Made by a program: the position numbers and the translations under genes
Shown here: positions 25,243 to 44,390 of the stretch, piece by piece
Position numbering within the stretch: the first letter of the stretch is position 1
Layout: every line of letters starts with the position of its first letter
Notes under the pieces: model-generated
What the model was told of the DNA's origin: nothing
The model's input: only the letters and a program-made list of their open reading frames with translations
Database searches by the model: none
Assembly: GCA_025358925.1 (NCBI GenBank)
Contig: JANYHT010000033.1
Span: forward strand, 62,001-126,000
DNA length: 64,000 nt
Direction: 5' to 3'
DNA from: Gemmatimonadaceae bacterium
Lineage (GTDB): Bacteria > Gemmatimonadota > Gemmatimonadetes > Gemmatimonadales > Gemmatimonadaceae

Positions 25243-25860
25243 CTACAATGCGCGCGCGTCCAACGTCCTTTGTACGGCACGAAGCGAACCACCAATCGCA
25301 TGCAGCGAGACCAGCGCATGATAGAAGACGTCCGCGACTTCTTCAGTTGCACGCTCGAGGTCGCCGTCGGCACATGCCACCGCAAGCTCAACCGCCTCTT
25401 CACCCAATTTCTTTAATCGTAAATTGCGATCGCCAAAGAGACGTCGCGTGTAGCTCGCACTCGAAGCATCAGCCGTCGCGCGCTCCGCAATCGTCGCGTC
25501 GAGGGTGGCGAGCGCATCTGGCCGTAGCGCCGACTCGCGAAAACACGAAACAGCGCCGGTGTGGCACGCTGGACCGACCGGATGTACGCGTGCAAGTACT
25601 GCATCACCATCACAATCGGGAGAGAGAGAAACGACACGCTGTGTATTTCCACTCGTCGCACCTTTGTGCCAAAGTCCGCGCGTACGCGACGTGTAGTGCA
25701 TCTCACCCGTGGTGAGCGTACGCTCGAGCGCCTCGCGCGTGGCGTGCGCGACCATCAACACGGCACCCGTGATCGCGTCTTGCGCAACGACTGTAACGAA
25801 ACCATTGCTCTTGATGAAATCGAGCGCGTCTAGATCAAGCAAGAACGGTAGCGTTGTCAT
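25243..25860 (-). CDS. hisIE: HisIE: phosphoribosyl-AMP cyclohydrolase / phosphoribosyl-ATP diphosphatase
   Basis: 205 residues in two domains that carry out steps 2 and 3 of histidine synthesis. The HisI domain (about 20-105) has the hallmark HYTSRTRGLWHKGATSGN and the metal site in SPDCDGDAVL plus a later HTGAVSCF. The HisE domain (about 115-205) has RLKKLGEEAVELAVA and the helical EEVADVFYHAL. The ATG at 25860 overlaps the hisN stop by 4 bases; the open frame goes on to 26013 inside hisN and is rejected. It is the last gene of the operon. Confidence 0.95.
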   Translation of the reverse strand: MTTLPFLLDLDALDFIKSNGFVTVVAQDAITGAVLMVAHATREALERTLTTGEMHYTSRTRGLWHKGATSGNTQRVVSLSPDCDGDAVLARVHPVGPACHTGAVSCFRESALRPDALATLDATIAERATADASSASYTRRLFGDRNLRLKKLGEEAVELAVACADGDLERATEEVADVFYHALVSLHAIGGSLRAVQRTLDARAL

Positions 25861-26642
25861 GCACTCTCCGTATGCAAATAAGTCCGCGTGACGACTGCTA
25901 ACGCGGCGTTCGTCGCGATTGCACTCCCGCCGAACGCCGTTGACGCACCATCCCAGTCGGAAAACACTCCGCCTGCTTCCGCAATTATGGGTTGCATCGC
26001 GGCGATATCCCAAGCGTTCACGATGTCATCCACCATAATTTCCGCTCGTCCGGTTGCGACTAAGAGATAGCCGTAGCAATCACCCCATGTCCGCGCTACA
26101 CCCACCCGCGACGCCAGCGAACGCCACTGCGTGCTGCGCCACGACCGTTCGGCAAATCCATCATCCGTGATGAGCGCAGTGGCATTTGCTAACGTTGCGA
26201 CGGACGAGACAGATGCCCGCGCGCCGTTCCACCAACATCCTTCGCCGGGCGCCGCGACCACCAGTTCATTCACGGCGGGAAAGCAGGCGGCGCCCGCGAG
26301 CACCGTATCGCCTTCACAACACGCCACGAGCGTTCCCCACAACGGCACGCCGCGAACAAACGCCTTGGTACCGTCGATCGGATCGAGGATCCAACGGCGA
26401 CGTGCACTACCACCTTCGTCCGCAAACTCTTCCCCTTGAATACCGTCCAACGGAAAACGCGCACGCAACCACGCCCGTGCCGCCAACTCAGCTTCGCGAT
26501 CTGCGATTGTTACGGGTGATCCGTCGTCCTTCCGTTCAACATCAACGGTGCCGCCATACCATCGCATCGCGATCGACGCGGCGAACTGCGCGACCTCGGC
26601 GGCGGCCTGCATTAACGTTTGCGGCGCAATGACCTTAGTCAT
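25857..26642 (-). CDS. hisN: histidinol-phosphatase, inositol-monophosphatase type (HisN)
   Basis: 261 residues of the inositol monophosphatase family: the metal-binding GEEF (in [10 protein letters not shown]), the signature [15 protein letters not shown], and a C-terminal [12 protein letters not shown] with its Asp. Family members hydrolyse several sugar phosphates, but position inside the his operon, coupled by ATGA overlaps to hisF and hisIE, makes dephosphorylation of L-histidinol phosphate the likely job. It would replace the HAD-type phosphatase domain of enterobacterial HisB, which is absent from hisB here. Confidence 0.92.
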
Positions 26643-27415
26643 GCGGCCACCTCGAGTACTGATCGCACCGACAGGCCAGCCAATCGCATGTGCGCTTTCA
26701 GCGCGGCGACTGTCGTGACGTCATCGTGCAAAATACCGGCAACGAGTACGGCGTCAGCATGCCCCTGCGCTATTGCCTCTACGAGATGTGCCGGCAAGCC
26801 TGCACCGCCCGATGCGATCACAGGCACGTGCACGGCGTCAGCAACCGCGCGTGTGAGTGCCAGATCGTAACCAGTGCGCGCGCCATCACGATCAATGGAC
26901 GTGAGCAGAATTTCGCCAGCGCCGCGCTCGACGCATTCCTGCGCCCACGCCAGCGCGTCCAATGGCGTCTCGACACGCCCTCCTTTTACGAACACTTTCC
27001 ACGCTCCATCCGCACCGCGCTTGGCATCGATACTCGCGACGACGCACTGCGCACCAAACCGATGCGCCGCCTCGCTCAGCACCTCCGGACGGGCAACGGC
27101 TGCGGAATTGATCGCCACCTTATCCGCACCCGCACGGAGTACACGCGCCACGTCGTGGGCCGACCGCACGCCGCCGCCAATTGTCAGCGGTATAAACAGT
27201 CGCTCCGCGGTACGTTGTGCAACATCGAGCAGCGTGGCGCGCTCTTCCGCGCTGGCCGAGATGTCGAGGAAGGTGATCTCGTCGGCGCCTTCGCGCTCGT
27301 AGCGCTCAGACAATTGCACCGGATCACCGACATCACGTAACCCTTCAAACTGTACACCTTTCACGACGCGTGCGCCTTTGACGTCGAGACATACGATGAG
27401 TCGCGTGGTGAGCAT
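26639..27415 (-). CDS. hisF: imidazole glycerol phosphate synthase cyclase subunit HisF
   Basis: 258 residues, a TIM barrel. It has the N-terminal half [18 protein letters not shown] with the catalytic Asp11-type residue, DITFLDI in the second strand and the second catalytic Asp in [13 protein letters not shown], which is the mark of HisF rather than HisA. It makes imidazole glycerol phosphate and AICAR from PRFAR with ammonia from HisH. Its stop overlaps the hisN start by 4 bases; it follows hisB by 4 bases. Confidence 0.96.
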
Positions 27416-27419
27416 CTCG

Positions 27420-27962
27420 TTACGTCTCGCTCACCTGGACCTGCACGCTGCCCTTCGTACTAAACACGGCGCCTGACGCAATAAGCGCATCACGAAGCGC
27501 AAGTCCAAGCGCTTTGAACGCCGCTTCAACCACGTGATGCTTGTCGCGTCCGCGCAGCACACGCACATGCAACGTCGCTTTGGCGTTGTCGGCGAACGAC
27601 CGCATAAAGTGATCGTACAACGGCGACGGCAGCGGGCCGCGATAATACGGGCGCCCTCCGATGTCGAGCACGACCTGCACCAGGGCATCGTCCATAGAAA
27701 TCGTGCGTTCGCCGTAACGTGCGCATCCAGCGGGCGCGAACGCCGCGATCGCCTGACCGAACACAATCGCGACGTCCTCAATGAGATGGTGACGCAAATC
27801 GCCCGTGGCTTGCACGTCGAGGTCCACGCCTGCGTAACGCGCCAACGTCACCAGCATGTGATCGAGAAACGGTTCGCCTGTGCGCACGCGAGCGATGCCT
27901 GCTCCCGCCGTGACGGACAAGCGGATTTGCGTTTCCTTCGATTCCCGAACGACGACGGTCAT
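27420..27962 (-). CDS. hisB: imidazoleglycerol-phosphate dehydratase HisB
   Basis: 180 residues, monofunctional size. The two manganese-binding motifs are present: FLDHML near residue 32 and [11 protein letters not shown] near 57; the repeated half shows YDHFMRSFA and the [13 protein letters not shown] motif. It dehydrates imidazole glycerol phosphate in the cytosol. No phosphatase domain is fused, which agrees with a separate hisN. The ATG overlaps the hisA stop (ATGA). Confidence 0.96.
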
Positions 27963-28672
27963 ACTCCGTACTCCTCAGCAAGTCGACGCGCATCAAGCGC
28001 GCCCGTGTATAGGGCCATGCCCAACACCGCACCGGCTAACCCGCGATGCTCGAGCGCGCGTAAATCTTCAAACGATGACACACCACCGGAAGCGAACACC
28101 GGCCACGCACTCGCGTCGGCCACATCTTCCATGAGCGGAAGGTCGGTGCCTTCCATCTTGCCTTCTTTGTGCACGGCCGTCACAAGCACGCCGGCCAGCG
28201 GCAACACAGCCAGCTCCTGCACAAAATCAATCACATCCAGACGTGACGTTTCCGCCCATCCGCGCGTGACTACGCGACGCTCGCGCACATCCGCCGCAAT
28301 GATCAATCGTCCCGGAAACCGATGCGCCATCTCACCGCGCCAATCTTCGTCTTCAATGGCGCGCGTGCCAATCACCACCCACGACGCTCCATCGTCGAGC
28401 AGTCGCTCAATCTGTGTATCCTCACGCACCCCACCGCCAACCTGTACCGGCACGCTCGCCTCACGCAACAAATCGCGAATGACTTCGGTGTTCGCACCAC
28501 GGCTGGTCGCGGCGTCGAGGTCAACCACATGCAACCGCGAGAAGCCAATGCGTGACCAGTCGCGCGCAACCGCCAACGGATCATCCAAGCGCACGCGTTC
28601 ATCCGCATAGTCGCCTCCTACGAGCTGCACGCAGCTGCCACCGCGCAAATCCACGGCCGGAATAACGATCAT
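27959..28672 (-). CDS. hisA: phosphoribosylformimino-AICAR-phosphate isomerase HisA
   Basis: 237 residues, TIM barrel. It starts MIVIPAVDLRGGSCVQL with the first catalytic Asp, has LHVVDLDAA and the QVGGGVRED phosphate loop. The second catalytic position lies in LVTAVHKEGKMEGTD, where ordinary HisA has a Thr-Asp-x-x-x-x-Gly; here it reads Thr-Ala-Val-His, with the acid further on, so this region should be compared with homologues. The ATG at 28672 overlaps the hisH stop; the frame upstream to 28837 lies within hisH and is rejected. Confidence 0.94.
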   Translation of the reverse strand: MIVIPAVDLRGGSCVQLVGGDYADERVRLDDPLAVARDWSRIGFSRLHVVDLDAATSRGANTEVIRDLLREASVPVQVGGGVREDTQIERLLDDGASWVVIGTRAIEDEDWRGEMAHRFPGRLIIAADVRERRVVTRGWAETSRLDVIDFVQELAVLPLAGVLVTAVHKEGKMEGTDLPLMEDVADASAWPVFASGGVSSFEDLRALEHRGLAGAVLGMALYTGALDARRLAEEYGV

Positions 28673-29340
28673 CACATCTCCCCGCGTGAGGACACGGCGC
28701 GCTCGAGCGCGTCGCCGAGAAAGGCCTGCACGAAACGCACTCCAGGCGCGCTCGATTTTTCCGGATGGAACTGCACGCCGACCACATTGTACCGACGAAT
28801 CGCGGCGGGAAAACGATCCTGTCCGTGCGTGCTCCACGCGACGACGGCATCCATCGCCTCTGGCGTCGGACGACAGACAAAACTATTCGCGTAATACGCC
28901 ATGTCGAACATCGACTGCGTAATTCGCGGTTCCTGCACATCGTCTAACCGGTTCCATCCAATCTGCGGCAGGCATCGCGCAGTGAGCTTCGTCACGCGCC
29001 CAGGCACGATACCAAGACCCACGCCGGGCCCTTCGTCGCTGCCGTCAAACAAAAGTTGCATACCGAGACAAATGCCAAGACAGGGCAATCCGTCACGAAG
29101 CGCGTCGTACATCGTATCACGTCCTGATGCTAAGCGTTCGGCCGCAGGCGAGAACGCACCAACCCCCGGCAACACCAGTGCATCAGTGTGCTGCACGGCC
29201 CGCGCCGCATCCGTCTCGACACGCACGTGGGCACCGCGCAATTCGAGCGCCTTCACCAGCGAATGCAGATTGCCAGCGCCGTAATCAAACACCGTAACGC
29301 GCAGCGACTTGTGCGCCGCCGCACCGTGCGTCGTCATCAT
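28672..29340 (-). CDS. hisH: imidazole glycerol phosphate synthase glutaminase subunit HisH
   Basis: 222 residues, a class I glutaminase. The nucleophile Cys is in GICLGMQLLF, the oxyanion region in LPGVGAF, and the His-Glu pair in GVQFHPEKS. It supplies ammonia to HisF. Two Met codons in a row open the gene; the first overlaps the hisC stop. GAGNLHSLVKAL near the start is the HisH-typical glycine-rich turn. Confidence 0.95.
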   Translation of the reverse strand: MMTTHGAAAHKSLRVTVFDYGAGNLHSLVKALELRGAHVRVETDAARAVQHTDALVLPGVGAFSPAAERLASGRDTMYDALRDGLPCLGICLGMQLLFDGSDEGPGVGLGIVPGRVTKLTARCLPQIGWNRLDDVQEPRITQSMFDMAYYANSFVCRPTPEAMDAVVAWSTHGQDRFPAAIRRYNVVGVQFHPEKSSAPGVRFVQAFLGDALERAVSSRGEM

Positions 29341-30431
29341 CCGTTCACCTCACGGAGCGCTGGCGCGAGCGCACTTAGCATGCGCTCCATCAGCGGCCAC
29401 GGCCCGACGCTGATTCGCAACGCGTCACCGACATGCGGCAGCGCGGGAAATGGACGTACCGCGACACCACGCGTGCGCATCGCTTGTCCAACGGCCACGC
29501 ACTGCGCGACTGGCACGCACACAAAGTTGGCCGCCGACGGCATTGGTGCGAGTCCCATCGCGCGGAGAGCACCGGCCAGTCGTTCGCGCAAGGTCACGGC
29601 CAGCGCAACGTGCTCCGCGACCCATTCGGAATCGTATCGTAACGCTGAGAGCGCGACCCGTTCCGCCATCGCGTTGAGTTTGTACGGACCACGCGACTTC
29701 TCGACCTCCATCACGAGCGACGGCTGGCCGATCGCATACCCGAGACGTAGGCCCGCCAACCCGTATGCTTTCGACATTGTGCGAATAATCAGCACGCGCT
29801 CCGACCGTGCGACCAAATCAATGGACGAGACACCCGCGAATTCCGCATACGCTTCATCGATGAACACGACACCGCGCGCGTGTGCGATTGCGCGTTCAAT
29901 GCTCGCGCGCGCGATCAGGGCTCCGGTCGGATTATTCGGCGAGCAGAGATACAGAATTTTCGGAGTGGTCGCGAGCAACGCGTCAATATCTGGTTGATGC
30001 CCAGTGTGCTGAGCGGCCGTTGTCGACCGCTCCGAAATGCCGCGCCAGCGCAAAGCGTTCATCTGCGCAAAAATCGGAATCATTGCAAACGATGGCTCCG
30101 ATCCCGCGACAAGCTCGCCGGGTTCGCCAAACGCACGCATGGCGGAATCAAGAATGTCGTCCGAGCCGCAACCCGTGACGATCATGTCCGCTGACACACC
30201 ATGCAACAACGCCAACTCGGCCTTGAGTTCGGCGGCATACAGCGTCGGATACCGCGTCACCGCCGCGACCGGCATCTCGCGCAATGTGCGCTCAGCCGTC
30301 GGCGGAATGCCCCACAAATTTGTGTTATCTGTGAGATCAAGTTCGACGGCCGTGCGCTTGGGATCGTACAGCGCAACCGCATCGTAGGCCGCGCGCGCAA
30401 ACGCCAAACGTTCCTGCATCGGTGCGCTCAT
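29337..30431 (-). CDS. hisC: histidinol-phosphate aminotransferase HisC
   Basis: 364 residues, fold-type I PLP enzyme. CGSDDILDS, the SPNNPTG motif (LYLCSPNNPTG), DEAYAEF and the PLP lysine in TMSKAYGLAGLRLGY are all in order, ending with RISVG. It moves an amino group from glutamate to imidazole acetol phosphate. The ATG at 30431 forms an ATGA overlap with the hisD stop; an upstream Met at 30455 is inside hisD. Confidence 0.95.
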   Translation of the reverse strand: MSAPMQERLAFARAAYDAVALYDPKRTAVELDLTDNTNLWGIPPTAERTLREMPVAAVTRYPTLYAAELKAELALLHGVSADMIVTGCGSDDILDSAMRAFGEPGELVAGSEPSFAMIPIFAQMNALRWRGISERSTTAAQHTGHQPDIDALLATTPKILYLCSPNNPTGALIARASIERAIAHARGVVFIDEAYAEFAGVSSIDLVARSERVLIIRTMSKAYGLAGLRLGYAIGQPSLVMEVEKSRGPYKLNAMAERVALSALRYDSEWVAEHVALAVTLRERLAGALRAMGLAPMPSAANFVCVPVAQCVAVGQAMRTRGVAVRPFPALPHVGDALRISVGPWPLMERMLSALAPALREVNG

Positions 30432-31771
30432 GCGATCACACTGCGCGAGCGCCACGCACGCGCCGCCGCGGCGTGTCCGGGAAGCCCTTCGGCATCGGCG
30501 AAACGACCAACATCATCGGCCAAACGCGCGGCCGCGTCAGGCGATACGCGTTGCCACGTGGTCCACCGCACAAAATCCAAGGTCGATAATCCCGAGTAGC
30601 AGCGCGCCGCGCCCGCCGTCGGCAACACATGGTTTGCGCCCGTCATATAATCGCCGAAGGCAACAGAACTACTTGGCCCGACAAACACGGTGCCTGCACT
30701 ACGCAATGCGCCCAACGTTTCATCACGCACGTCATCACGGACCACCAAGAGCAGATGCTCTGCTGCCCACGCATTGGAAAAAGTGATGCCCTCTGACAAC
30801 TGCGGTGCTGTCACAATCGCCCCACGCGCCGCCAGTGCGGTGCGTACGATTTCGGCCCGCGGTGCATCGATCAGCAACGCCGCTAATGCGCGTTCTATAT
30901 CGCGCGCCATCGTGGTCGCGTCGTCACCGCACAACATGGCAATGACAGCGGCATCAGGATCATGCTCTGCTTGCGCCAGCAACTCGCGCGCAATCACGTC
31001 GGCCTCCGCACTATCGTCCGCTAACACCAACAATTCACTCGGCCCCGCTGGGGCATCGATGGCCACATCAGACACGAGCTGTAATTTTGCCGCCGCGACG
31101 TAGGCGTTGCCGGGACCAACCACGCGGTCAACGCGAGGCACGGTCTGTGTGCCTAACGCCATCGCCGCAATCGCGCCCGCACCACCAATGGCGAATACGC
31201 GATCAACATTGGCGAGTTCCGCTGCAGCAAGCACCACAGCCGACGGCATGCCATCGGGTCCGGGCGGCGAACAAACGATCACCTCACGTACACCGGCAAC
31301 GCGGGCAGGAATTGCGCCCATCAGCAGCGAACTCGGATACGACGCACGTCCACCGGGCGCGTAGACACCAACGCGCGCTAGTGGATCCGGACGTCGTCCC
31401 ACGGTAATGCCGGGTTCCGGACTGACCTCTGACGCGAACGGGCGAAACACGGCATGCACCGCACCGATATTTCTCTCCGCACGCTGCAACGCTTGCAGGA
31501 GCAACGGATCGAGCGCATCGAGTGCCCGTGACCATGCGGCACGCGGTATCTCAAGCGATTCCAACGCGACGCCATCGAATTCGCGGGCGAATGCGAAGAG
31601 CGCGGCATCGCCTTCGGTGCGCACGCGGGCAATGATACCGCGCGTCCGTTCGCGCACGATGTCGTATTGCGTCTGCGATCGATCCATCAACGCCGTACGC
31701 GTCGATGCGCTCAATGCCGACAGTGCGCCGCGCGCACGGAGCGTCACCGTCTGTACATCGTCAAGGGTCAT
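30428..31771 (-). CDS. hisD: histidinol dehydrogenase HisD
   Basis: 447 residues, zinc and NAD dependent, making the last two oxidations of the pathway. VGPGNAYVAAAK, DAPAGPSELLVLADDSA and the catalytic Glu-His region SEGITFSNAWAAEHL are seen, then the zinc-binding GANHVLPTAGAARCYSGL. Note that the enzyme's usual 'EH' pair is kept in AAEHL. It overlaps hisG by 4 bases at its start and hisC at its end. Confidence 0.96.
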   Translation of the reverse strand: MTLDDVQTVTLRARGALSALSASTRTALMDRSQTQYDIVRERTRGIIARVRTEGDAALFAFAREFDGVALESLEIPRAAWSRALDALDPLLLQALQRAERNIGAVHAVFRPFASEVSPEPGITVGRRPDPLARVGVYAPGGRASYPSSLLMGAIPARVAGVREVIVCSPPGPDGMPSAVVLAAAELANVDRVFAIGGAGAIAAMALGTQTVPRVDRVVGPGNAYVAAAKLQLVSDVAIDAPAGPSELLVLADDSAEADVIARELLAQAEHDPDAAVIAMLCGDDATTMARDIERALAALLIDAPRAEIVRTALAARGAIVTAPQLSEGITFSNAWAAEHLLLVVRDDVRDETLGALRSAGTVFVGPSSSVAFGDYMTGANHVLPTAGAARCYSGLSTLDFVRWTTWQRVSPDAAARLADDVGRFADAEGLPGHAAAARAWRSRSVIA

Positions 31772-32646
31772 GGCACGAGCCGTTCGATGCGCGTGACCAA
31801 AATGCCTTCACCTCCAAGTGCGCGCAGTTGCGAAATGGTGCGGTAGATCGTGTCCGCAGCGACGACGGCGTGGACCGCCACAAAGCGACCATGATCGGCA
31901 ATTTCAATGACCGTCGGTCCGTTCAATCCGGGCAAGACGCGGCGTACCGCATCCAACGCATCGCGTGGAACGTTGGCCATTAAATACCGCTGTCCACGAG
32001 CACGAATCACCGACCCAAGGGCCGTGACCAACTCGTCCAATGCTTGTCCACGGATTGGATCACCATTGCGAGGACCGGCACTTGCGGTGACCAAATGCGC
32101 GCTAGACTGCATGACGGTTTCGATTTCGCGTAGGCCGTTGACACGCAATGTCGATCCCGTCGACGTGAGATCGACGATGACATCCGCGATGCCCAAATGT
32201 GGCGCGATTTCCGCCGCGCCGGACACGGGAACGATCTCCACCGGCCGACCACGCTCCGCAAAGAATCGACGAGCGATGCGCGGAAAGACGGTCGCAACGC
32301 GCGCTGGTTTTTGAGTGGTGCCGATTTGCTCCACCGAAGTGATTCCCGCGTCGTCCTTGGCCGCAACGACCAACCGACAGCGACCAAATCCCAAATCAAG
32401 ATGCGACGCTAACGTGCGCTCCGACTCGCTTACCAGATCCCAACCGGTTACACCCACGTCGGCCGCGCCGTCAGCCACGAACTCCGGAATGTCTTGGGCG
32501 CGAACGAAAATCGCCTCAAATTCGCCGCCGAGCGATGCGGTTAGCGCGCGTTCGCTCGATGCGCGCACCTCGAGCCCGGCGTCGTTAAATAGCTCGCGGG
32601 TGTCTTCGCTTAATCGGCCTTTATTCGGTAATGCGATGCGCAGCAT
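31768..32646 (-). CDS. hisG: ATP phosphoribosyltransferase HisG, long form
   Basis: 292 residues, so the long form with a C-terminal ACT-like regulatory domain that allows feedback inhibition by histidine and needs no HisZ. It opens MLRIALPNKGRL, has DVGVTGWDLVSE and the PRPP-binding ADVIVDLTSTGSTLR. The last 80 residues (from about 215) are the regulatory domain. Much longer open frames reach 32862, but the ATG at 32646 is where HisG starts. It is the first gene of the operon, downstream of the predicted attenuator; only a weak ribosome site (GGAT) precedes it. Confidence 0.96.
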   Translation of the reverse strand: MLRIALPNKGRLSEDTRELFNDAGLEVRASSERALTASLGGEFEAIFVRAQDIPEFVADGAADVGVTGWDLVSESERTLASHLDLGFGRCRLVVAAKDDAGITSVEQIGTTQKPARVATVFPRIARRFFAERGRPVEIVPVSGAAEIAPHLGIADVIVDLTSTGSTLRVNGLREIETVMQSSAHLVTASAGPRNGDPIRGQALDELVTALGSVIRARGQRYLMANVPRDALDAVRRVLPGLNGPTVIEIADHGRFVAVHAVVAADTIYRTISQLRALGGEGILVTRIERLVP

Positions 32647-32691: not shown

Positions 32692-32717
32692 GAGATCCAG
32701 GACAAACCGACACAAAC

Positions 32718-32747
32718 AAAAAAGCCCGTCCAAGAAAGAGGACAGGC
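32718..32747 (-). terminator. attenuator-type terminator before hisG
   Basis: On the minus strand an 8-bp stem (GCCTGTCC with GGACGGGC, one G-U pair; plus coordinates 32740-32747 and 32724-32731) has an 8-base loop and is followed by six T residues (32718-32723). It sits between the His-rich leader ORF and hisG. Its 5' arm can pair instead with leader codons 18-20, which would prevent hairpin formation. Confidence 0.8.
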
Positions 32748-32786
32748 CGAGGTTTGCTTTGAGCAGCCAGAGGAGCGGTGGTGCCG

Positions 32787-32870
32787 CTAGCCACGTACGC
32801 CCAGCGCATCTCGACCCGTTGGGCCGTGACGGTGGTGCGTATGATGGTGGCGAACCGTGCACAGTGACAT
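32787..32870 (-). CDS. his operon leader peptide (HisL-like)
   Basis: 27 codons, MSLCTVRHHHTHHRHGPTGRD... to a TAG. Six of the eight residues 8-15 are His (codons at 32826-32849), the classical design of a his attenuation leader, and it lies directly upstream of a U-tailed hairpin and hisG. Residues 18-20 (ACG GGT CG, plus 32812-32819) can pair over 8 bp, with two G-U wobbles, with the terminator 5' arm (32742-32749); a ribosome stalled at the first His codons would leave this segment free. No good ribosome site is seen before the ATG; a longer GTG-started version from 32969 in the same frame is possible. Confidence 0.78.
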   Translation of the reverse strand: MSLCTVRHHHTHHRHGPTGRDALGVRG

Positions 32871-32933
32871 GCAGGGAGCGTAGCGGAGCAGCAGCTCTCC
32901 GTCAAGCGCGTGCCGCGCCTGACGGGCCGGATC

Positions 32934-33049: not shown

Positions 33050-33553
33050 ATGCGGTTTCTCAGCTTTGCAGTAGTGACGAGCGCGGCGATCGTGCTCGGC
33101 GCTTGCGGTGGCGATAAGACGGCGAAGACGGATTCGGCGATGACGCCGGCGGCTACGCCCGCAGCAACAACGCCTTCGGCGGCGCCGACGGCTGGCGCGA
33201 TGGCGCCGATCACCGGTAAGACGGTGGAGATCAAGATGATTGGCGACGGTCAGGGCTATCGTTTCGAGCCGGCTGACGTGACAATCAAGCAAGGCGACGG
33301 TATCAAATTTGTGGTCGTCTCGGGCGCGCCGCACAACATCGCGTTCACGGATGCCGCCACGTTGCCGGCCGCCGCGAAGGCTGCGTTGATGGCCAATATG
33401 CCAGAACAAGCTGGTGAACTTTCCGGCAAGATGTTGATCGGTGCCAACGAAAGCTACACAGTGTCGTTCGCCGGTGTCCCAGCGGGCAAGTACAACTACA
33501 ACTGCACGCCGCACTTGGCCATGAACATGAAGGGCGTCATCACGGTTCAGTAA
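33050..33553 (+). CDS. cupredoxin (plastocyanin-like) lipoprotein
   Basis: 167 residues. A lipobox LGAC places the lipidated Cys at 19. After an Ala/Thr/Pro linker (20-55) comes one cupredoxin domain. All four type 1 copper ligands are seen: His95 in APHN, then C152-x-x-H155-x-x-x-x-M160 in NCTPHLAMNM. It is a membrane-anchored periplasmic electron carrier. A CTGGAGG ribosome site lies 11 bases before the ATG and a strong terminator follows. The gene is divergent from the his leader, and its partners cannot be read. Confidence 0.93.
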   Translation: MRFLSFAVVTSAAIVLGACGGDKTAKTDSAMTPAATPAATTPSAAPTAGAMAPITGKTVEIKMIGDGQGYRFEPADVTIKQGDGIKFVVVSGAPHNIAFTDAATLPAAAKAALMANMPEQAGELSGKMLIGANESYTVSFAGVPAGKYNYNCTPHLAMNMKGVITVQ

Positions 33554-44361: not shown

Positions 44362-44390
44362 TTGACAGCAACCGAATGCAAAATTATGCA
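44362..44390 (+). promoter_or_regulatory. predicted argC promoter
   Basis: A perfect -35 TTGACA (44362-44367), a 17-bp spacer and a -10 TATGCA (44385-44390). The -10 overlaps the middle TGCA of the operator array. The expected start point, about 7 bases downstream, is 44397, the first base of the GTG start of argC, so a leaderless mRNA is predicted. Confidence 0.62.

Follow-up and report, generated by a model that had tools for sequence, protein, structure and literature searches.

A probable histidine leader-peptide attenuator ahead of the his operon of Gemmatimonas and its relatives

Introduction

What controls the histidine operon that lies on the minus strand of a 64,000-nt stretch of Gemmatimonas DNA (hereafter the window), and does the short His-rich reading frame ahead of hisG take part in that control? 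Comparison of hisG upstream regions and modelling of their folding suggest that the leader is a ribosome-mediated transcription attenuator of the his operon, sensing via its His codons, a reading to which we assign a probability of about 0.92. Below we describe the locus, its conservation in relatives, the way in which it might switch, and the alternatives.

Results

A His-rich frame and four competing arms precede hisG

The operon carries the complete his pathway in a single run, hisGDCHABFN-IE, in which HisN is a HisN-type phosphatase. As the initial annotation had claimed, this complete operon stands behind the leader: every gene from hisG to hisIE is recognised by NCBIfam, hisC, hisN and hisB at scores under the strict cut-off of the model that fits each best. 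The host, a soil/water bacterium, is a Gemmatimonas bin, so the initial annotation's guess of Gemmatimonadota was right. hisG is present in 23 genomes of the same genus, and its nearest relative (97%) comes from a Gemmatimonadaceae bin. A plastocyanin-like cupredoxin gene (33050-33553, plus strand) lies divergent from the his leader. The elements of the locus are as follows.

31768..32646, minus strand: hisG, the first gene of the operon (NCBIfam TIGR00070, 1.5e-64; Pfam HisG)
25243..31771, minus strand: hisD-hisC-hisH-hisA-hisB-hisF-hisN-hisIE, the rest of the operon, with genes that touch or overlap (NCBIfam)
32787..32870, minus strand: leader ORF, MSLCTVRHHHTHHRHGPTGRDALGVRG, 27 codons and a TAG stop (direct reading; counterparts in 169 of 206 hisG upstream regions)
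32826..32849, minus strand: regulatory His codons, HHHTHHRH, which also supply the 5' strand of the lower 1:2 stem (sequence, folding, alignment)
32821..32826, minus strand: arm 1, CGGCCC, which pairs with arm 2 to form the top of the anti-antiterminator hairpin (folding, alignment)
32810..32819, minus strand: arm 2, ACGGGTCGAG, partner of arm 1 when there is no antitermination, or of arm 3 in the antiterminator (folding, duplex calculation)
32740..32751, minus strand: arm 3, CTCGGCCTGTCC, the 5' arm of the terminator (32748-32740) and the partner of arm 2 (32751-32742) (duplex, alignment)
32717..32731, minus strand: arm 4, GGACGGGCT (32731-32723), which with the U-tract makes the intrinsic terminator (folding)

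Codons 8-15 of the leader read CAC CAT CAT ACG CAC CAC CGT CAC (32849-32826), and six His thus fall within eight minus-strand codons exactly where they had first been reported. The U-tailed hairpin initially placed at 32718-32747 is recovered by folding and is correct to within one base: its arms are GGCCTGTCC (32748-32740) and the arm 4 sequence, followed by T6. The proposed pairing of leader codons 18-20 (ACGGGTCG, 32819-32812) with 32742-32749, 8 bp of which two are G-U, can likewise be seen in the sequence, and in a duplex calculation this arm 2-arm 3 helix spans 10 bp (32819-32810 with 32742-32751), with 3 bp more at its flank. All four arms are discernible by eye: GGCCC directly after the His run (arm 1), ACGGGTC (arm 2), GGCCCGTCC (arm 3) and GGACGGGCC followed by U's (arm 4). 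The arms come in duplicate: arms 1 and 3 are copies of each other, and so are arms 2 and 4. Below the 1:2 hairpin, a lower stem pairs TACGC (32841-32837) with GCGTA (32800-32796). Three hallmarks of an attenuator are present at this locus, namely a short ORF dense in codons for the amino acid that the operon behind it makes, an intrinsic terminator between the ORF and hisG, and a competing hairpin that overlaps the regulatory codons.

The leader is conserved upstream of hisG

We gathered hisG upstream regions from 80 named records and about 130 anonymous Gemmatimonadota genomes. This yielded 206 regions with enough sequence, duplicates included, and 140 distinct leaders after deduplication; the promoter, terminator and arm tests were run on the deduplicated set. 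At least four His per ten codons were found in 169 of the 206 regions, compared with 12 of 206 on the reverse strand, and at least five in 160 compared with a single one. Control stretches 850-1200 nt upstream reached these levels in 9 and 2 of 99 cases, respectively. The loci with a His-rich leader belong to Gemmatimonadota, to Myxococcus and its relatives, and to bins labelled Eisenbacteria, typical peptides being MRSTLQHHHHVHHGHGPTGRG... in Gemmatimonas and ...HHHHAHHRLGPDGTVRHAHAW... in Myxococcus. His codon usage in the leaders is nearly even (464 CAT, 443 CAC), which indicates that conservation acts on the amino acid and not on the base. An intrinsic terminator follows the leader at 137 of the 140 distinct loci (5 in reverse complements and 9 in shuffled sequence).

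In most of the regions without a leader at this position, hisG lies directly behind a hisZ-like gene (as judged from its reading frame), and hisG is therefore not the first gene there. This arrangement, with no His leader at that place, is seen in other Gemmatimonadota families, at seven loci and similar ones.

Promoter position suggests a leaderless start

A sigma70-like promoter lies immediately ahead of the leader in the window, with the elements below (sequence; scan of the window), from which +1 is predicted at the A of the ATG (32870).

32900..32905, minus strand: -35 element, TTGACG
32877..32882, minus strand: -10 element, TACGCT, behind a 17-nt spacer and ending 6 nt before the leader ATG

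The same layout recurs among the 140 distinct leaders. An exact TTGAC stands 30-46 nt ahead of the leader start codon in 119 of them (shuffles: mean 1.4, maximum 4), and the -10 box usually ends 5-10 nt ahead of that codon; in about 15% of the leaders the TTGAC element is not where it would be expected. Shine-Dalgarno-like sequence ahead of the leaders is not enriched, with 11 seen and 13.9 expected. A promoter that ends 5-10 nt before the ATG, together with no detectable Shine-Dalgarno sequence, suggests that the leader mRNA is probably leaderless, and promoter spacing predicts that most leaders start at the AUG or up to about 4 nt before it. Elsewhere in the window, at 44362 (plus strand), a long, argC-like ORF (VHSIPVGVLGASGYAGRELC...) begins with a GTG 5-7 nt behind a TTGAC/-10-like element and possibly has a leaderless start too.

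The competing arms co-evolve

RNAalifold was given 46 diverse leaders and, unprompted, predicted the 1:2 hairpin and the terminator as well as the lower stem. In this lower stem, the central part of the His run (often CAT GCG CAT) pairs with a downstream GCGCATG-like sequence, and this use of the run accounts for the conserved non-His codon found there; in the lower helix, all four pairs (4/4) show changes on both sides. In the anti-antiterminator and terminator, 93% of cells were paired and 37 carried double changes; shuffles, which take no account of kinship, gave 10.7 double-change cells (0 of 500 shuffles as high). For the antiterminator, the curated 46-sequence alignment gave 86.7% paired, a level reached by no shuffle and by no slid control (at most 50%), and 14 double-change cells against 8.3 in the same kind of kinship-blind shuffle (3/500). 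Its fixed-register covariation in a 104-sequence alignment was not significant, with 5 double-change cells compared with 2.9 in shuffles. This double-change support is modest because the core of the antiterminator hardly varies.

A register-free test, in which arms were swapped between leaders, gave a stronger signal. Arm 2 paired with its own arm 3 at -26.4 kcal/mol, compared with -23.7 kcal/mol for swapped partners (z -11.0), while three control segments had no preference for their own partner (z +0.8, +0.5 and -0.1). With swaps restricted to near relatives, a partial rather than full control for kinship, the own-partner preference persisted in 85%. The antiterminator helix, whose formation would exclude the terminator, is thus conserved and co-evolving, with modest covariation in fixed register and a strong swap test. 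The initial annotation had expected related genomes to keep the His run and the arms and to show compensatory changes, and the leader and terminator counts, the covarying helices and the swap test bear this out.

A model for the switch

In vivo, the leader would be expected to switch as follows. RNA polymerase would start at, or a few bases from, the leader AUG, and a ribosome would initiate on the near-leaderless RNA. With ample His-tRNA, the ribosome would clear the His codons and allow arm 1 to pair with arm 2, the lower stem from the His codons adding to this hairpin; arm 3, left free, would then pair with arm 4, and transcription would stop ahead of hisG. With scarce His-tRNA, the ribosome would stall within the His run and hold arm 1 and the lower stem open, such that arm 2 could take arm 3 before arm 4 exists. 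No terminator would then form, and hisGDCHABFN-IE would be transcribed.

Folding calculations were compared with this model. With arm 4 still to be transcribed, 45% of leaders captured arm 3 when the RNA was free, compared with 90% when it was blocked through the late His codons. For the window sequence, the equilibrium model at this stage showed no difference (0.77 free, 0.76 stalled), and the switch there would therefore rest on the order of folding, in which the local 1:2 hairpin would come first. When the full-length RNA was folded at equilibrium, the terminator was favoured whatever the state, as a kinetic decision would lead one to expect.

The leader occurs in two phyla and may have travelled with the operon

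Searched with covariance model R1, the window's genome holds a single strong copy, at hisG (1.5e-18; the next match, 0.02). Within the family the model matched 100 of 148 genomes and 31 of 35 genera, and several of the family genomes without a match also lack hisG. It matched 39 of 117 genomes sampled from the phylum of a Myxococcus xanthus record, all at about 5e-8 or better. The hisG of Corallococcus is 70% identical to that of Gemmatimonas and ranks among Gemmatimonadota sequences, which makes a transfer of operon and leader plausible: judged from sequence relationships, the his operon may have moved together with its leader switch between Gemmatimonadota and Myxococcaceae-type bacteria.

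Some individual loci merit comment. Seven Myxococcaceae-type hisG loci have up to 70% identity to Gemmatimonas and the same leader. Two records titled Comamonas sp. KCTC 72670 and Candidatus Kuenenia stuttgartiensis have his loci that are Myxococcus-like and Gemmatimonas-like, respectively, and are probably mislabelled assemblies. Bin JAICNG01 contains two different hisG loci (L064 and L070; also L249 and L250), each with its own His leader, by duplication or because the bin is mixed.

Related leaders carry codons for other amino acids

Weaker covariance-model matches in relatives proved to be leaders for other amino acids. One is a Tyr-rich leader, MSIRRRYYAYSYAYAPRPTGRDRWRMRG, ahead of a phenylalanine 4-monooxygenase gene, and others, rich in Phe and Tyr, stand ahead of a DAHP synthase gene. 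Tyr-rich leaders with the same arms were noted ahead of phenylalanine 4-monooxygenase at seven loci, in some Gemmatimonadota genomes. The 29 DAHP synthase loci examined were the top matches from a single family, an uneven sample; 25 of them had at least four Tyr/Phe per ten codons upstream, compared with 2 on the reverse strand. The TTGAC/-10/ATG leaderless layout was found in 22 of the 29 leaders and a terminator in 28 of the 29 upstream regions, and the arm-swap test gave z -4.6, compared with 0.0 for a control segment.

The window's genome itself has a Tyr-rich, probably leaderless leader, MPNQTFANSYYYTPSRMGLGEGAVRD, and a terminator before DAHP synthase (L253, 1027-1158, plus strand; contig C45, about 78432-78563). 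Simple scans of this genome revealed no Trp-rich leader upstream of trpE (PF04715) and no branched-chain-rich leader upstream of the TPP-enzyme gene taken as ilvB (PF02776), and phenylalanine hydroxylase is absent from it. In Myxococcus xanthus (L247, 1321-1428, plus strand), a Thr-rich frame (..LTTVLTTTTTTTTTPRRARVV) and a terminator precede aspartate kinase and match model R1 at 34.5 bits; this is likely a threonine attenuator.

Taken together, we consider it rather likely that Gemmatimonadota use modular, leaderless ribosome-mediated attenuators, which share one layout of promoter, leader and switch and in which the codon block alone is swapped. That block would be rich in His where the his operon follows and in Tyr/Phe where DAHP synthase follows or, in certain lineages, phenylalanine 4-monooxygenase. 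The his module, travelling with its operon, would be common to Myxococcaceae-type bacteria as well.

Alternative explanations

The closest alternative keeps the His leader-peptide attenuator but gives it an ordinary 5' untranslated region; a ribosome binding site would then have escaped recognition, and the TTGAC/-10 element would be inactive or play a secondary part. The leaders in which that element is out of place leave room for this, as does the predicted nature of the transcription start. We nevertheless regard it as unlikely, given the single distance at which TTGAC recurs, the position of the -10 box just ahead of the ATG in most leaders, the lack of Shine-Dalgarno enrichment, and the independent appearance of the leaderless layout in the DAHP synthase leaders. 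It is also conceivable that the locus yields a trans-acting small RNA or a functional His-rich (for example metal-binding) peptide, that the terminator merely ends this transcript, and that hisG has its own promoter; Sinorhizobium rnTrpL/peTrpL is an attenuator that also yields a trans-acting RNA and a peptide (PMC7298713). Strict placement upstream of hisG, with one strong copy per genome, and selective co-evolution of arms 2 and 3, which a stand-alone peptide gene would not need, make this account very improbable.

T-box or riboswitch control with an incidental His-rich ORF has a precedent in the T-box-controlled his genes of Firmicutes and Actinobacteria (PMC9413887). It is scarcely credible here, being contradicted both by the Rfam searches, in which neither the window nor 13 related loci gave any family, T-box included, at or above threshold, and by conservation of the His run at the amino-acid level. 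His runs and hairpins do arise at a low rate in GC-rich DNA, as the 12 reverse-strand frames with at least four His illustrate, but the notion that a GC-rich frame with His codons happens to lie next to an unrelated terminator is contradicted by the leader counts, the terminator counts, the arm-swap test and covariation, and we reject a chance origin as having negligible probability. The preferred reading remains a ribosome-mediated attenuator, probably with a leaderless start.

Discussion

The initial annotation had likened the locus to enteric his operons, and the hisG leader of the window and its relatives does share their logic: like hisL of E. coli and Salmonella (RF00514), it combines a run of His codons, competing hairpins and an intrinsic terminator with hisG as the first gene. 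Its anatomy differs from that of E. coli in the probably leaderless start, the mutually copied arms and the lack of a match to the Rfam family. Unlike in hisL, the promoter lies 6 nt from the ATG, arms 1 and 3 and arms 2 and 4 are near-copies, and the lower stem takes in a conserved non-His codon of the run, often GCG (Ala). RF00514 found no match in the window or 13 related loci, whereas E. coli hisL, the positive control, scored 131.6 bits (threshold 49); at E up to 10, Rfam gave on the leader only chance-level matches to sRNA terminators. Conversely, E. coli hisL matches model R1 weakly (23.2 bits).

Cys-rich leaderless ORFs of mycobacteria were reportedly described by Canestrari and colleagues in 2020. 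Beyond Proteobacteria, His leader-peptide attenuators have been proposed in Firmicutes, in the B. cereus group, Peptostreptococcaceae and Erysipelotrichales (PMC9413887), with hisS/hisZ leaders likewise proposed in that phylum (PMC2965389). These also couple a His-codon leader peptide to competing helices, but they belong to other lineages, and the two papers do not mention Gemmatimonadota or Myxococcota. Leaderless leader peptides have been reported for Sinorhizobium trpL (PMC7298713), for leuL, trpL, ilvL and thrL in Streptomyces (PMC8079986) and for mycobacterial Cys-rich ORFs (PMC4633059). The leader described here would share with these a transcript that starts at the start codon and an ORF that senses an amino acid; no His- or Tyr-type is listed among them, and for Gemmatimonas the leaderless start is predicted from promoter position alone. 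Searches of the open-access literature turned up neither a description of leaders of this kind for Gemmatimonadota or Myxococcota nor one of a Tyr-type leader for DAHP synthase.

The attenuation mechanism itself is therefore already known from enterics and some Firmicutes, and leaderless leader peptides from Actinobacteria and Sinorhizobium. New are the phyla, for which we found no description, the probably leaderless start, and the shared layout with an exchangeable codon block. Attenuation of his by a leader peptide is thereby extended to two further phyla. A leaderless start without the usual ribosome-recruiting sequence would mean that coupling of ribosome and polymerase has to be set at initiation, and the swappable codon blocks (His; Tyr/Phe) suggest a reusable cassette, which makes the repeated origin of attenuators testable by comparing modules within a genome. 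Small genes and RNA elements missed by Rfam and by gene finders are also added to what is known of poorly annotated phyla.
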